IMG/VR virus record: IMGVR_UViG_3300023257_000008 | Location: 124,001 to 188,000 of that record | Direction: 5' to 3' (one strand) | Origin: a virus | DNA: 64,000 nt | Part shown: in pieces, positions 3,006 through 60,061 of the stretch | Layout of the letters: every line of letters starts with the position of its first letter | Numbering within the stretch: position 1 is the first letter of the stretch | The notes under the pieces: generated by a model | What the model was told of the DNA's origin: nothing | The model's input: the letters and a program-made list of their open reading frames with translations, nothing else | The model's database searches: none | Program-made: the position numbers and the translations under genes

Positions 3006-3027
3006 CGTGTTCCTCCTACTGGATCAT

Positions 3028-3053
3028 CTACTCCCTGGCGGCAGCAGATGATC
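3028..3053 (-). promoter_or_regulatory. Bipartite promoter for the 565-aa repeat protein
   Basis: Minus-strand GATCATC, 13 bases, GAGTAG, 23 bases before the ATG at 3005 and followed by AGGAGG. It is one member of the window-wide motif family. Confidence 0.7.
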
Positions 3054-3067
3054 CAGTGTTGAATCTG

Positions 3068-12151: not shown

Positions 12152-12527
12152 CTAGTGCCAGCCCATCGGTGTCGCTCCTTCCCGCCGGGCTTCCCCCGGC
12201 ACGGGTCTGCAATCAATACGGCAGTCTAGTTGCCTCATGTTCGGGGTGTAGACCACGTCCTCCATGAACTCGTCCAGGTGACGGGTCGCTTCTAGGTAGT
12301 CTTGGGCTGAGGTTCCTGCTTCGGCCACGGCGAGGTGGAAGGCACCCTGGAAGAGTGAAATCTCGGTGCAAGCGTAGGACCGGACAAGGTGTGAGTCGTT
12401 CCATCGGGAGCCACACTCGTAGCTCCCGATGGAAAAATGTCAGGAAGCTTCTCAGGAGGCTTCTTAGCGGGGCGTCACAGAACGGGCACTTTGGGTGCAG
12501 GGTCCACATCGAAGTTGATTCAGTCAT
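12152..12527 (-). pseudogene. Zinc-ribbon protein with single-base frameshift
   Basis: Starts MTESTSMWTLHPKCPFCDAP at 12527, overlapping the stop of the gene upstream. After a T5 run (12433-12437) the coding frame is lost; removing one T continues as FSIGSYECGSRWNDS...LFQGAFHLAVAEAGTS...LDEFMEDV and ends at 12152, giving exactly 125 codons. CPFC plus YECGS fit a zinc ribbon. It may be a real lesion, a slippage site or a sequencing error. Confidence 0.55.
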
Positions 12528-46791: not shown

Positions 46792-47415
46792 TCATTGCCG
46801 GGGCCATTCTTGGAGAGACCAATTGGCCCAACGGTGCGTCAAAAGTGGTGCCGATGAGCAGGCGTATTCATGCCATCGTTTGGTTTTCATCAGGTCCCAG
46901 TCCGCTGCCTCCAATTCGCCGTCAAATTGTCGAATGAAGGCAAGTACTCTGGGGTGTTTGCGCCATCCCTTTGTGTGGTATTTGTTCATGATGGGAGCAA
47001 ATCTTCGTTCTCCCCGAGTAATAGCCTCGGGGACAATACACGTTACGGCATCCCCGGCATCCCCGCAGTTCCCACAACCACAAGGACGAAAGACAAAGCG
47101 AACATCCAAGTACCACTGACTGATCGTGTATTCCAAGGCATCCTCATCATCGAGGTTGTCTGGGTTGATGGGGTTTTTGAGGATGTCATCACTGAAGTTT
47201 GCGATGATCATATCAAACAGGTCAAGCCCTTCCCGCTGCCAGGGACCTTCGGGCCAAGTGTGATGGCCTTTACCTCCAGGCAACCGAGCGGCCATCTCCT
47301 TTATTTCCTCGTCCGTGACGAGTTCCGGGTGGTCAATGAACTTCCGATCCAGCGGATCCTTCATCTGGTTAAAGGCAAACTGAAGCGTGCCCGGCCCTGG
47401 TATGACATTGTCCAT
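46792..47415 (-). CDS. Hypothetical protein, paralogue of 48089-48715
   Basis: 207 residues: VIPGPGTLQFAFNQMKDP, W..GPW.R.GLD, CGCGNCGDAG, then ITRGERRFAPIMNK and WRKHPRVLAFIRQFDGEL. All these recur in the gene at 48089 in the same order. The pair flanks the sigma factor gene. Function unknown. Confidence 0.7.
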   Translation of the reverse strand: MDNVIPGPGTLQFAFNQMKDPLDRKFIDHPELVTDEEIKEMAARLPGGKGHHTWPEGPWQREGLDLFDMIIANFSDDILKNPINPDNLDDEDALEYTISQWYLDVRFVFRPCGCGNCGDAGDAVTCIVPEAITRGERRFAPIMNKYHTKGWRKHPRVLAFIRQFDGELEAADWDLMKTKRWHEYACSSAPLLTHRWANWSLQEWPRQ

Positions 47416-47477: not shown

Positions 47478-48089
47478 TCAACTGCAAAGGGCCTCCCGGA
47501 AGGGCTGAAACTCCCGACGAACACGCTGGAGAACACGACCGATCCGACCCTTAGTAGAACCGAACTCTGCGGCTATCTCAGTCTGGCTGTAACCTTCAAC
47601 CCTTCGTTTGATGATAGCCACGTACCGTTCAGCGTTGTCCGGAAAGATCTGAGTGCAAACGGACTCCACAAGCTCCATTTGACAACCCGCTGTCCATTGG
47701 CTGTTCGACGGGTCCACTTCATACGATGTGGGCGGCTGTGGTGCTGTGGTTTTGCCTTGCCACTCCCATTTTGTCTGTGCCCCCAGGCTGCTACGGGGAA
47801 CTACGTCTTGACCGGCTCGTTGGAGCCACTTGATGGCCTTACGGGCTATAAACAGACCTAGTCGGTCTAAGGTCAGAGAGCTTTTCAGTTCCTCCCCTTC
47901 CCGGTGAATGAAGAAGCGAAGAGCATCGACATGAATGAATTGTATGGCCGTGTCCTGGATCACGTCCTCCACATCACTTGAAGGGATGGGCACCGCCCAG
48001 GTACGGAGACCGTAATGTCCCGCTTCCTGAAAGGTCTGCCAGTTCTGTCCCAACCACTGGCTGGTGACGTTTGTAGCCTCAGTGTTCAT
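47478..48089 (-). CDS. ECF-like RNA polymerase sigma factor
   Basis: 203 residues. Region 2-like SSDVEDVIQDTAIQFIHV (as in the ECF DAEDxVQxxF motif) and C-terminal region 4.2-like GYSQTEIAAEFGSTKGRIGR then VLQRVRREF. ATG 48089 overlaps the stop of the upstream gene by one base. Sigma factors direct host RNA polymerase; the many GATCATC-N13-GAGTAG sites have ECF-type geometry, so this is the natural candidate to read them (inference). Confidence 0.75.
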   Translation of the reverse strand: MNTEATNVTSQWLGQNWQTFQEAGHYGLRTWAVPIPSSDVEDVIQDTAIQFIHVDALRFFIHREGEELKSSLTLDRLGLFIARKAIKWLQRAGQDVVPRSSLGAQTKWEWQGKTTAPQPPTSYEVDPSNSQWTAGCQMELVESVCTQIFPDNAERYVAIIKRRVEGYSQTEIAAEFGSTKGRIGRVLQRVRREFQPFREALCS

Positions 48090-48715
48090 CACCAACTGTA
48101 CTCCCGAGGCCATTCCCGAAGGGTCCATTCCTTTCCGATTGGCCCGGTTGCCTCAGGTGCTGTATCCCCAGCGTAGTTGTCCCCCCGTGCCGTCCGCATG
48201 AGATCGTTGCCTGCTGCCTTCAGTTCCTGGTCAAACTTGGCAATGAGGGCCAGCACTTTAGGCTGTTTTCTCCACCCCCGTGGCAGGCGTTTGTTCATTA
48301 CGGCTGCGTAGTGCCTTTCACCACGGGCAATTGCAGCGGGCGCTGTCATCGTTTTTGCCTCTCCAATCTGCATGCAGTTTTGGCACCCACACTCTTGGAA
48401 TGCGAGTCTCACACCTCGGTACCACTCCCAGATTGTGTTCTCCAGGTATTCATCTGTCTCCTTATCACAGGAGCCAAAAACCGTAGTGTCCTTCAAATAA
48501 TCAAGGGCGAGCATATCCGGGTCGTCCCGTTTCCAGGGGCCATGACCCCAAGGCACATGCTCAGGACCAGGAAGCCCCATCTTTTCCCTCAGATGATTTT
48601 GGTCTTCAGGGGTGAGGGGCTGCTGGTCCTTAACCTTTTGCAACACCGGATCATTTATGCTGTCCAGCGCAAACTGAAGCGTCCCTGGTCCTGGTACGAC
48701 CTCACCCATCGTCAC
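48089..48715 (-). CDS. Hypothetical protein, paralogue of 46792-47415
   Basis: 208 residues with VVPGPGTLQFALDSINDP, WGHGPWKR, CGCQNC, RGERHYAAVMNK and WRKQPKVLALIAKFDQEL. The stop overlaps the sigma factor start; the ATG overlaps the end of ligA. One CxxxC-type metal site is plausible. Confidence 0.7.
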   Translation of the reverse strand: MTMGEVVPGPGTLQFALDSINDPVLQKVKDQQPLTPEDQNHLREKMGLPGPEHVPWGHGPWKRDDPDMLALDYLKDTTVFGSCDKETDEYLENTIWEWYRGVRLAFQECGCQNCMQIGEAKTMTAPAAIARGERHYAAVMNKRLPRGWRKQPKVLALIAKFDQELKAAGNDLMRTARGDNYAGDTAPEATGPIGKEWTLREWPREYSW

Positions 48716-50577
48716 ACCCCCGCCAGCTTGTACGCCTCGTCCAAGCCGATCACCTTCACGCCGTACTGCTTGGCCTTTTTCGCTTTGCCCGAGGTACTGT
48801 CCGGGTCCAGGGCGATCAGGTAGGATAGTTTCTTGGACACGCTGCCCTTCATTGTGCCACCCGCCTTTTCGATAGCATCGAGCAGGGCGGGTTCACGGGT
48901 GCCAGTCAGGCAAAAGGTCATCCCGAGCAACGGCCCGGAGATGTCCTGGATGGTGATGTCGGCTCCGCCAAGGTCTTGCGTGGCCCGCAACTTGACGATC
49001 AGCCCGGCCTTGGCAGCAAATCCCGTCACGAAGGCCAGCGCTTTCGTGTCCCCCATTCCAGGGATGCTGGCAACTGCCGGGAGGGTCTTGCCCCTGGTGA
49101 CGATGGGAACATGCACCTTGGCCTTGAAGAGCAGGTTCAGGGTGGTGTATCCAGCGTCCACAACCACCTTGGCCATGCTGCGCCCGATCAGGGGGATACC
49201 CAGGCTCCCTATCAGGACGTGCAGGGGCAGCGTCTTCTTGGCGTTAAGGTTCCTGAGGGCTTTGTCCGCCGAGCCGCCGACACGCCGTCCGCTCAACTCC
49301 AGGGAGGCGACCTCGTCCAGGTCCAGGTTGTAGAGGTCAGCGATGTCCATTGGGGCGTTGCGTATCCGTTCCTGATCCGCTGCCGGGAGGGTCTTCACGT
49401 CATCCTTCTTTACGCCGAAGGTGACTTCAAACACTTCCTCGGTGAGGGTGAAAGGGAACGCATCCACCATTGCGTCGATCAGGGTCTCGCCAACGTGTAG
49501 GACACCGAGCTTCTTGACCCAGCGTCTGATGGCCCCGGTTGCCTGGGCGGGGCACTCCTCGCTGCGGCACACAAGGTACTCGCCGTCCCGCACCAAGGCT
49601 CCCTGGCAGGAGGGGCACTGGGTCGGGGTGCGGAGTCCCGTGCCTGTACCGAACTTGTTCAGGACTTCCTCTACATAGGGGATAACATCATTTCTGCGAG
49701 AAACGAGAATTGCGTCGCCGGGTACCGGAACAGTGGCTTTGCCCCACAGCCCTTCGATGTTGCTGATGTTGTGAAGGCTCGCCTGTTTGACGTTCGCCCC
49801 TGCGAGGTTCACAACGTCAAATTCGGCCACCGGGGTGATGCGCCCGCTGTTGCCTACCTGCCAACGGATGCTCCGCAGCGTGGTCGGCTTGGACTCATGA
49901 GGAAACTTATAAGCGCAGGCACCCTTGGGGCGGTTGTTCAGTTCCCCAAGCATCGCACGGGCGTTGGCGTCAGCCACCTCGATCACCAGCCCGTCGATAT
50001 CGTAACCCAGGCTCTTCCTGACGGTGGCGATGTAGTCCTGGTAGAGGGCCTCCACTGCTGCCAGTCCCTTGTACTCACCCCAGCGGGGTACCTGGAAGCC
50101 CATCGTGGCCAGGGCCTTCAACTCGGCGCTCTTGGACGCCATCGGGCGACCACCGGGCAGGAGTTGATAGCAGATAACCGTCAGGAAGGCACATTTGCTG
50201 TTGTCAGTTTGACGTTTCGCAGTGCCGCTCGCCGTGTTACGGGGGTTGGATTCGCCCTTGAAGTGGGTGACGAAGTCATCGTGGGTCACCACAACCTCGG
50301 CCCGCACCCACACATCGTCTGGGGTGGGGGTGCCATCCGGTAACGTCGGGGGCAGTACCTTGACTGCACCCTTCATCAGCAGGACGTTCCGGGTGATATC
50401 CTCGCCTATCGTCCCGTCGCCCCGTGTCAGCGCCTGCACTAGCTTCCTGTTTTCGTATCTCATCCCACAGTTGTGTGCTAAAATTCCAGGCCCCACAAAG
50501 TAACAGGACGTATTGCGGATTGTCAGATCAAAGGCTCTTCTGGGTCCCGGTACTTTCTCAACGGATGCAACTCGCAT
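48712..50577 (-). CDS. ligA: NAD-dependent DNA ligase, C-terminal extein with split-intein C half
   Basis: Residues 1-36 are an intein C-fragment: block F RRAFDLTIRNTSCYFVG and block G GILAHN, followed by the +1 Cys. The ligase resumes at CGMRYENRKLVQALTRGDG. It then has the OB fold, the four-Cys zinc finger (CPSCQGALV...CRSEECPAQ), HhH motifs (SIPGMGDTKAL) and a BRCT domain (LLGMTFCLTGTREP). Trans-splicing with the product of 51630-52265 would give a 691-residue ligase, normal LigA length. Promoter at 50609-50634. Confidence 0.9.
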   Translation of the reverse strand: MRVASVEKVPGPRRAFDLTIRNTSCYFVGPGILAHNCGMRYENRKLVQALTRGDGTIGEDITRNVLLMKGAVKVLPPTLPDGTPTPDDVWVRAEVVVTHDDFVTHFKGESNPRNTASGTAKRQTDNSKCAFLTVICYQLLPGGRPMASKSAELKALATMGFQVPRWGEYKGLAAVEALYQDYIATVRKSLGYDIDGLVIEVADANARAMLGELNNRPKGACAYKFPHESKPTTLRSIRWQVGNSGRITPVAEFDVVNLAGANVKQASLHNISNIEGLWGKATVPVPGDAILVSRRNDVIPYVEEVLNKFGTGTGLRTPTQCPSCQGALVRDGEYLVCRSEECPAQATGAIRRWVKKLGVLHVGETLIDAMVDAFPFTLTEEVFEVTFGVKKDDVKTLPAADQERIRNAPMDIADLYNLDLDEVASLELSGRRVGGSADKALRNLNAKKTLPLHVLIGSLGIPLIGRSMAKVVVDAGYTTLNLLFKAKVHVPIVTRGKTLPAVASIPGMGDTKALAFVTGFAAKAGLIVKLRATQDLGGADITIQDISGPLLGMTFCLTGTREPALLDAIEKAGGTMKGSVSKKLSYLIALDPDSTSGKAKKAKQYGVKVIGLDEAYKLAGV

Positions 50578-50608
50578 TGTAGACCTCGTTTGATGACCGT
50601 CACTAGGT

Positions 50609-50634
50609 CTACTCTGTGGGGTCCGCAGATGATC
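50609..50634 (-). promoter_or_regulatory. Bipartite promoter for the ligA 3' half
   Basis: GATCATC-N13-GAGTAG lying inside the last codons of the homing endonuclease gene (GSSADPTE plus TAG). It lets the second ligA piece be transcribed on its own. Confidence 0.7.
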
Positions 50635-51580
50635 CCGTTTTAAACTGATTCAGAAATGTCCGCACTCTGCTCAACACATCTTCAGGGTTTTTACGCCAGT
50701 CACTTTCCCATACCACTAGAATACGGTACCCTACTTTTCTGAGTCCCGCTAAACGACGGCGATCATACTGCCATTTTTGGGCCGATGTCATTCGGATTGT
50801 TGTGTTGTAGAACTCAGGGTCTGAGAATTTGGGGTTACTCGGGTTACAATGATAGTAGTCCCCAAAGAACTCAAGGATCACTTTCAAGGTCTCATTAGCC
50901 TCATCAACGGTGAAACCTGAAATGACTTGTTCACTTACAAAGCCTGCATACAATCTCGCATCTATCAGATGTTGTCGAAAATCATCCGATATCTTTGATC
51001 GAGGGAGCCCCTTGATCATCCGAGCAACCCGTTGGTTTCTTTGTTCTGGCGTTAATGAGGCCCAAACTTTTTTGGCACCCTCGCCTATTTTTTTTGCTCT
51101 CCGTTGTTTAGCCTCCTCCGTCATTGTTTGCCATTGCTTGACGACACCTCTGCGTCGTTCCTTCGGTGTCATGCGGGAATAGGTGGCAATACGGGTTTGA
51201 CGTGCTCTTTCATATCGTTCTGCATTTTTGTCTGACGGTATTAAAGCCAGACCCAAAGCTACTTGACGACCAAAGTTCTCACTCCATCCGGGCGTTGCTC
51301 TCGTAATAGCTGCCTTTTTGCGTGCCTCCTTACGAGCACATTTGGGGCAAAGATGCAGACCCCACTTCTGTTCCTGTTCTACAGCTTGTTTAACCACGTG
51401 CCGAACCCGAGATAATGGACTCGATAAGGTGATCTCTTTATGTCCACAGCGGTCACAAATTTTTGTCAGGACAGGTTTTTCTTGCTTTACTCGCAAGGTC
51501 CATTGACGACCAGCTATCGTGTTACCCCGTTTTCTGGTTTTCCTGAAATGTTCAACAAACCAAGCGTCCCCTAATAACAT
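50609..51580 (-). CDS. Vsr-like free-standing homing endonuclease
   Basis: Frame open from 51706, but ATG 51580 (MLLGDAWFVEHF) directly after a strong hairpin is the likelier start, giving 323 residues. Cys pairs (CDRCGH, CPKC) form a zinc ribbon near residue 50-95, then Arg/Lys-rich helices of NUMOD-like character (MTPKERRRGVVKQW, LTPEQRNQRVAR). The C-terminus (LEFFGDYYHCNPSNP, YDRRRLAGLRKVGYRILVVW) resembles Vsr-type endonuclease folds. Vsr-like endonucleases are known between split-intein halves in phage genes. Confidence 0.75.
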   Translation of the reverse strand: MLLGDAWFVEHFRKTRKRGNTIAGRQWTLRVKQEKPVLTKICDRCGHKEITLSSPLSRVRHVVKQAVEQEQKWGLHLCPKCARKEARKKAAITRATPGWSENFGRQVALGLALIPSDKNAERYERARQTRIATYSRMTPKERRRGVVKQWQTMTEEAKQRRAKKIGEGAKKVWASLTPEQRNQRVARMIKGLPRSKISDDFRQHLIDARLYAGFVSEQVISGFTVDEANETLKVILEFFGDYYHCNPSNPKFSDPEFYNTTIRMTSAQKWQYDRRRLAGLRKVGYRILVVWESDWRKNPEDVLSRVRTFLNQFKTGSSADPTE

Positions 51581-51586
51581 AAGGCC

Positions 51587-51620
51587 CCCCAGGACACCCG
51601 CTAGATGGGGTATCCTGGGG
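51587..51620 (-). promoter_or_regulatory. Hairpin before the homing endonuclease start
   Basis: CCCCAGGACACCC (51587-51599) pairs with GGGTATCCTGGGG (51608-51620), 13 bp with one G-T pair and an 8-base loop. On the minus strand the 3' arm holds the G-rich region just before ATG 51580, so it could hide the ribosome-binding site or end upstream transcription. Confidence 0.55.
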
Positions 51621-51629
51621 TCTAAACTA

Positions 51630-52265
51630 TCAGGGTTGTTCGGTACAGTCAAGCACGTCTTCACCCGTGAGATCTTTAGCTTCAACCCACCCTTTATCCT
51701 TGACATAGAAGAGATGGTCTTCAGTCACCACAACAGAGGATCCCAGATGCAGGGGATCCGTTTCAAAGGTAACCCGAACCCAGTTATCCTTGATGCCGTT
51801 GTCTTTGACGGCCACGACTTGTTCAGTGGTGACCCCCCTTTCAGGATCCCAGGTTAAAACTTGGGGCATCAGTCCCTTTTCTACGACCTCTTGAAGGGGG
51901 ACAGTTTCCCCATTAGCCAGATGCAGTGGGGTAGCCCCATCAAAACACGAGATACCATCAAGTTTGTCCATCACAGCGACATCGGCGTTGCTCACCGAGG
52001 CGAACCACGCAGCCAGATCCGTTTCGACCTGGGCCTTGTTCAGGCTGGACATTGGGATGCTGTGCCGGACCTTCGGCCATGCACCCTTGACCGGGGCGGG
52101 GGCTGCACCGACCTTGAGGAGTTCCGGGTGCTTGGGGTCGAGCGCTCGAAGCTGATCTTCCAGGGCGTCGTAAACCACATCCGTCATGATGGGGGAGCCG
52201 TTGTAATAAGCGTCCCGAGCGGCGGCGATCCGTTTGACCAGGGTATCTATCTGAGGGTTGCTCAT
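51630..52265 (-). CDS. ligA: NAD-dependent DNA ligase, N-terminal extein with split-intein N half
   Basis: 211 residues from ATG 52265 (AAGGAG). Residues 1-106 are the NAD-binding Ia domain and start of the adenylation domain (HSIPMSSLNKAQ, then MDKLDGIS with the adenylated Lys at about 101). From Cys 107 the sequence is an intein N-fragment: block A CFDGATPLHLANGE and block B VVVTEDHLFYVKDKGW with the TxxH motif. It stops after 105 intein residues. The break is in the KxDG nucleotidyltransferase motif, the most conserved part of the enzyme. Confidence 0.9.
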   Translation of the reverse strand: MSNPQIDTLVKRIAAARDAYYNGSPIMTDVVYDALEDQLRALDPKHPELLKVGAAPAPVKGAWPKVRHSIPMSSLNKAQVETDLAAWFASVSNADVAVMDKLDGISCFDGATPLHLANGETVPLQEVVEKGLMPQVLTWDPERGVTTEQVVAVKDNGIKDNWVRVTFETDPLHLGSSVVVTEDHLFYVKDKGWVEAKDLTGEDVLDCTEQP

Positions 52266-52309: not shown

Positions 52310-52335
52310 CTACTCAGCAGGTCGGTGAGATGATC
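52310..52335 (-). promoter_or_regulatory. Bipartite promoter for the ligA 5' half
   Basis: Full GATCATC-N13-GAGTAG match; the leader contains the AGGGG/CCCCT hairpin (about 52284-52302) before AAGGAG. Confidence 0.75.
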
Positions 52336-52351
52336 CCTTTTTGTCGTGCTC

Positions 52352-59989: not shown

Positions 59990-60061
59990 AACAAAAGTTC
60001 TGGGGGTCTTTGCTCAAGGGCCGTTTCGGACACACCTTCCTTAGATCCTTACGTGCAATGG

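Follow-up and report, generated by a model that had tools for sequence, protein, structure and literature searches.

Organization of the ligA Locus

The window analyzed here, a stretch of 64,000 bases, covers bases 124001-188000 of a 188,175-base phage record, which may be incomplete. Its minus strand carries ligA, the gene of an NAD+-dependent DNA ligase, which is uninterrupted in relatives and is coded here as two separate halves (Table 1). A 1,478-bp insert, running from 51947 down to 50470, breaks the gene just 3′ of the catalytic KLDG motif. Both ends of the insert are flush with codon boundaries, and it separates the Ser106 codon of LigA from that of Cys107. It consists of a 105-aa IntN, a free-standing endonuclease gene of the Vsr/EDxHD type, and a 36-aa IntC.

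Table 1. Features of the ligA locus in the window and of one related locus (window positions unless a contig is given).
Feature	Position	Strand	Description
LigN-IntN gene	51630-52265	-	211 aa; junction ...VMDKLDGIS/CFDGATPLHLANGETV...
N-extein, LigA residues 1-106	51948..52265	-	Domain Ia and adenylation motif KLDGIS with catalytic Lys; TIGR00575 E = 6e-15
IntN	51633..51947	-	105 aa, begins CFDG; Cys1, TEDH block B motif; TIGR01445 above cut-off
Hairpin	51587..51620	-	13-bp stem (one G-U pair), 8-nt loop; z = -3.6
Free-standing Vsr/EDxHD-type homing endonuclease gene	50609..51580	-	323 aa; Cys-rich (zinc-finger-like) N-terminal region
IntC-LigC gene	48712-50577	-	621 aa; N-terminus MRVASVEKVPGPRRAFDLTIRNTSCYFVGPGILAHN/CGMRYENRK
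IntC	50470..50577	-	36 aa, C-terminus ...GILAHN; direct reading; L003 homologue passes TIGR01443
C-extein	48712..50469	-	585 aa (rest of adenylation domain, OB, Zn finger, HhH, BRCT), first residue Cys+1; TIGR00575 E = 8e-99
Promoter-like element of ligN	52310..52337	-	GGGATCATCT...GAGTAG (ATCATC-N13-GAGTAG); matrix score 45.9
Promoter-like element of IntC-ligC	50609..50636	-	In-frame last endonuclease codons (GSSADPTE-stop); matrix score 46.8
Split-intein ligA of L131	G001:C1:8300-15600		Halves 3.8 kb apart; Vsr-endonuclease relic before IntC

All parts of a bacterial-type LigA (Ia, adenylation, OB, Zn, HhH, and BRCT) are present and spread over both halves. TIGR00575 spans the whole LigA; Nlig-Ia (E = 0.003) and HHH_5 (E = 0.013) score below their own cut-offs. 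In LigA the KLDG lysine motif lies in the N-half and the other ligase motifs in the C-half, so that neither half should be active alone. The predicted spliced ligase has 691 aa. Two proteins coded on the same strand at 46792-47415 and 48089-48715 look paralogous (PGPGTLQFA... and CGC.NC motifs) and matched no family.

The Split Intein

IntN matched TIGR01445 (intein_Nterm) with 28.0 bits at a cut-off of 24.5, and this was the sole match of the profile in the whole record. The window IntC was not called by TIGR01443, and its homologue in the related contig L003 was. The residues of a class 1 intein are all there, namely Cys1, the TEDH block B motif, the penultimate His35, the terminal Asn36, and Cys+1, and they are likewise kept in L003 and L131. 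Sequence matches of the split intein at the ligA break to inteins included NrdJ-1, with weak similarity. The AlphaFold2 model of IntN, built from a two-row alignment, is of low confidence (mean pLDDT 46). Matches found by phmmer to designed PPR repeat proteins were rejected as short repeat artefacts. Human-gut phage ligases that aligned from residue 14 of the C-half are ordinary contiguous ligases, and their seeming extension into IntC is spurious.

The original prediction had described a fractured ligA at 48712-52265, with a split intein in the adenylation motif, IntN of 105 aa after MDKLDGIS, IntC of 36 aa before CGMRYENRK, complete splice motifs on both halves, and a 691-aa product. Its coordinates and part sizes were right, the profiles TIGR00575 (both halves) and TIGR01445 bear out the gene and the intein, and the splice motifs were read directly. 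Neither a second ligase nor mutated splice residues were found: in the 188-kb record, possibly incomplete, PF01653 gave one match and PF01068 none, and the residues are intact. Judging from their sequences, LigN-IntN and IntC-LigC probably trans-splice. The ligase is presumably essential for the phage; a host ligase could stand in for phage LigA.

The Endonuclease Gene

The endonuclease likely starts at 51580 (MLLGDAW) and not at the listed ATG at 51706, because the L003 copy starts to align at 51580. Taken alone, the window protein has a weak link to Vsr (PF04480, E = 3e-4, just over the cut-off); its C-terminal region matched REase_MTES_1575 (PF18741) with E = 4e-6, below the cut-off, and DUF559 as well. 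The L003 copy matches TIGR00632 vsr (E = 2e-5). A two-row profile reached Vsr with no better than E = 0.12, and a nine-row profile compared with the PDB placed first 3r3p_A, "Mobile intron protein" (E = 0.006, weak), with Vsr among the other nearest entries. We take 3r3p_A to be the catalytic domain of I-Bth0305I. In the nine-member alignment Asp226, Glu237, Gly240, and His244 are invariant. The insert endonuclease is thus similar to the EDxHD/Vsr homing endonuclease family, of the I-Bth0305I kind. A Vsr-like frame between the ligase halves had been part of the original prediction, and the family matches and the nine-row profile agree with it, the start being amended as above. The AlphaFold2 model, again made from two rows, has low confidence (mean pLDDT 47).

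Relatives of this endonuclease occur in similar surroundings. In phiKp_21, PTm1, and CP21 they lie inside polB, with IntN before and IntC after. In L009 the relative sits between the split-intein halves of a gp41/DnaB-type helicase; this fractured gene (L009:2772-5801) combines a short IntN with a long IntC and adjoins a ribonucleotide-reductase-like gene bearing an intein start. The relative in the huge-phage record LR756508 is near a ribonucleotide-reductase-like gene, and no intein is visible in the stretch read.

Other endonuclease-like genes were also seen. A second, distant Vsr-like protein with a DUF7487 match is coded in the same phage record outside the window (G000:C1:65247-65501) and also in L027:661-1773. 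Directly upstream of ligA, L002 (341-1237) and L003 (3415-4305) have a GIY-YIG/NUMOD3 homing endonuclease gene (151/293 identical), which is absent at the corresponding position upstream of the window ligA.

Promoter-Like Elements and Hairpins

The motif ATCATC-N13-GAGTAG occurs in the window at 20 sites with a spacing of 13 and at one with a spacing of 14, and at no other spacing from 0 to 30. Examples (GGGATCATCT-N11-GAGTAG-like) are found at 60059, 57396, 56742, 56128, 52338, and 50637. The elements of ligN and IntC-ligC are two of the six top-scoring sites in the window; none of five shuffles exceeded 11.4. L003 has the motif at the same two places, and it is also present in L002, L003, and L013. 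Its rigid spacing suggests a dedicated sigma-like factor. A 216-aa protein with weak Sigma70_r4/ECF similarity, coded at 47478-48128 (-), two genes downstream of ligA, is a candidate for reading this promoter.

A GATCATC-type promoter for each half had been proposed from the start, and the matrix scores support both as predicted promoters, which may drive the ligase halves separately. The second element forms the C-terminal codons of the endonuclease (GSS....E-stop) in the window and L003 alike. This ending is shared by the GIY-YIG endonuclease genes that precede ligA in L002 and L003 and by a few other frames.

The matrix found no promoter before the endonuclease in the window. Both in the window (Table 1) and in L003 (z = -3.0), the 49-51 nt between the IntN stop and the endonuclease start form hairpins in which part of the start region is base-paired. 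The window hairpin ranks in the strongest 0.2% of 68-nt stretches of the same strand, and its 3′ arm includes part of the G-rich ribosome-binding region of the endonuclease; it probably represses this gene. The L003 hairpin contains a near-match, ATCATT-N13-GAGTAG, below the matrix threshold. A common function of the two can be offered only as a hypothesis, because their structures differ. T4 offers examples of homing endonuclease genes that contain promoters of the displaced genes, and its endonucleases are kept low by hairpins over the ribosome-binding site (PMC2988022). Two other hairpins were observed, a perfect 16-bp one at 12399-12434 (-) and one at 3018-3057 (-) that encloses an entire promoter motif.

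Alleles of the Insertion Site in Related Phages

The original prediction had called for a comparison with relatives lacking the insert. In the sister phage L002, ligA is uninterrupted at the insertion codon (MDKLDGISCAMHY), and this empty site aligns flush with the predicted junction. Compared with the window without its insert, L002 is nearly 100% identical across the ligA 3′ end and the downstream genes. Identity drops to about 65-90% near the insertion site, and upstream of ligA no clear similarity is left. This pattern fits the replacement of a tract around the insert, which homing with co-conversion would produce; plain recombination would look alike.

L003 has the same three-part insert with both splice junctions and all frames open. 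Between it and the window the identity is 83% for IntC, the most conserved part of the pair, 63% for IntN, 53% and 62% for the exteins, and 52% for the endonuclease, the least conserved part of the insert. The arrangement is not due to chance, because the whole layout recurs in L003 and the empty site of L002 is flush at the junction. In either phage the composition of the insert marks it as foreign: its third-codon-position GC is 0.43-0.58 vs 0.73-0.87 in the exteins (in the window alone, 0.50 for IntN, 0.43 for the endonuclease, and 0.44 for IntC vs 0.74-0.78).

A survey of ligA in 80 of 145 relatives yielded a third lineage, L051/L055/L111, with the same split codon (KLDGFS/C...HN/C). About 3.8 kb separates its ligA halves, and this stretch holds a gene for a 902-aa SF2 helicase as well as smaller frames. 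Directly 5′ of IntC there is a relic, about 35 codons of the C-terminus of a Vsr-type endonuclease (LVVWEDWKRGPSRVLEKVNAFL; E = 2.4e-5, 34.3 bits, where 20 shuffles reach at most 23.1 bits). The intein composition in these phages is that of the host gene. Identity to the third lineage is 59-63% for the intein vs 32-45% for the ligase, which could reflect transfer or a stronger constraint on the intein.

The three split rows are scattered over a tree built from 76 ligases and require three state changes. The window is sister to the intein-free L002 with support 100/100, and L051 is on a long branch, so its placement is unsure. Two scans of genome contigs found no relatives, and a scan with an upstream neighbour gene found nothing.

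L002, the window with L003, and the L051-type phages look like empty, occupied, and eroded stages of homing at one site, and the relic suggests that they followed in this order.

Several further observations concern these phages and other ligA breaks. The L051-type phages have a second intein-like N-terminal region in a 1,379-codon frame (G001:C1:24211-24495, G002:C1:18041-18325, and G003:C1:53667-53951). In L090 (2683-5466) a TnsA-like endonuclease gene, accompanied by no intein, interrupts ligA beyond the part coding for the OB domain, and the ligA of L110 ends at the point of this split. In L098 (2455-4569) about 190 nt, with no intein seen, come between the ligA parts for domain Ia and the adenylation motif and break the frame; this may be a genuine split or an error in the sequence.

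Proposed Mechanism and Alternative Explanations

The fractured ligA very probably represents a mobile unit of split intein and homing endonuclease, whose host protein would be restored by trans-splicing to the 691-aa ligase and which would home into empty alleles; splicing, cleavage, and homing are all deduced here from sequence comparison. The unit would comprise the IntN tail, the homing endonuclease gene, and the IntC head, set between the Ser106 and Cys107 codons. The promoter at 52337 would yield LigN-IntN, and the one carried in the 3′-terminal part of the endonuclease gene would yield IntC-LigC. The two intein halves would then associate, and the acyl shift at Cys1, transesterification to Cys+1, and cyclisation of Asn36 would join the KLDG catalytic Lys to the remaining enzyme. 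The endonuclease would be translated from the ligN transcript, probably held down by the start-region hairpin. It would cut insert-free ligA alleles, and repair would copy the unit in.

How much of this scheme could be otherwise? Trans-splicing may be real while the endonuclease no longer homes here, either because it is fixed and drifting or because it has another target site. We consider this improbable, though it deserves some weight: no other part of the insert is as poorly conserved as the endonuclease, homing enzymes decay once they are fixed, and L051 carries a copy that has done so. However, both copies are intact frames with Asp226, Glu237, and His244 of all nine aligned relatives, and a close relative has an empty site that could be invaded.

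It is distinctly less probable, and indeed quite unlikely, that the ligase halves associate without splicing and that the intein halves are dead passengers. Split phage enzymes acting as separate polypeptides exist, such as NrdA of phage Aeh1 and gp43 of phage 25 (PMC2988022), and the L090 ligA, broken elsewhere, suggests that the ligase may tolerate breaks. The window break, however, parts the catalytic Lys motif from the remaining adenylation domain, IntC is the best conserved part, and the splice residues are complete in three lineages, one of them without its endonuclease.

As the origin of the split, an assembly error or decay into a pseudogene, as might be asked of a metagenome-derived record, has practically no probability, and both readings were dropped because the structure recurs with open frames: L003 is an independent contig with 52-83% protein identity and all frames open, and the same split site is on three further contigs.

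Comparison with Known Systems

The reading as a mobile unit places the window locus in a class that is already known. Dassa et al. in 2009 reportedly described fractured genes, enzymes broken by a split intein with a Vsr-related endonuclease between the halves, in eight gene types. The window ligA is a further case of this kind, as had been predicted. It shares with those genes a DNA-metabolism enzyme, a split intein, a free-standing Vsr-related endonuclease gene, the phage context, and control elements that arrive with the endonuclease gene. Its host gene, which may set it apart from them, codes for an NAD+-dependent ligase and is broken at the catalytic-Lys motif. Empty and endonuclease-eroded alleles of one site come in addition; what the present comparison contributes is this allele series, above all the relic beside an intact split intein.

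The polB genes of Tenacibaculum PTm1, Campylobacter CP21, and Klebsiella phiKp_21 have the same order (N-half-IntN, Vsr-type endonuclease, IntC-C-half) and a homologous endonuclease domain, but they differ in host gene and insertion site, and the endonucleases are 18-25% identical over the full alignment. A long IntN (about 100-120 aa) with a short IntC (about 35-40 aa) is the usual division of split inteins (PMC12707363). The 105/36 split resembles Npu DnaE, gp41-1, and NrdJ-1 in this respect, although the similarity is weak and both insertion site and host protein are different. As in the control of T4 I-TevI, SegB, MobE, and SegG, the promoter-like element of the next gene lies inside the endonuclease gene and a hairpin covers the ribosome-binding site (PMC2988022); unlike there, the endonuclease family and promoter type are others and no promoter can be recognised inside the window hairpin.

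Since the split parts the catalytic lysine from the remaining ligase, it offers a clean activity read-out of trans-splicing, and the locus may provide a new split intein for protein engineering. The fractured gene has been proposed as the intermediate in the origin of split inteins. On balance we lean to the view that one ligA codon documents the complete life course of a fractured gene and that split inteins with distant halves, like that of cyanobacterial dnaE, could arise by its decay. With the same ligA codon empty, invaded, and eroded with the halves apart, the proposal of a fractured-gene intermediate becomes testable in one gene family.
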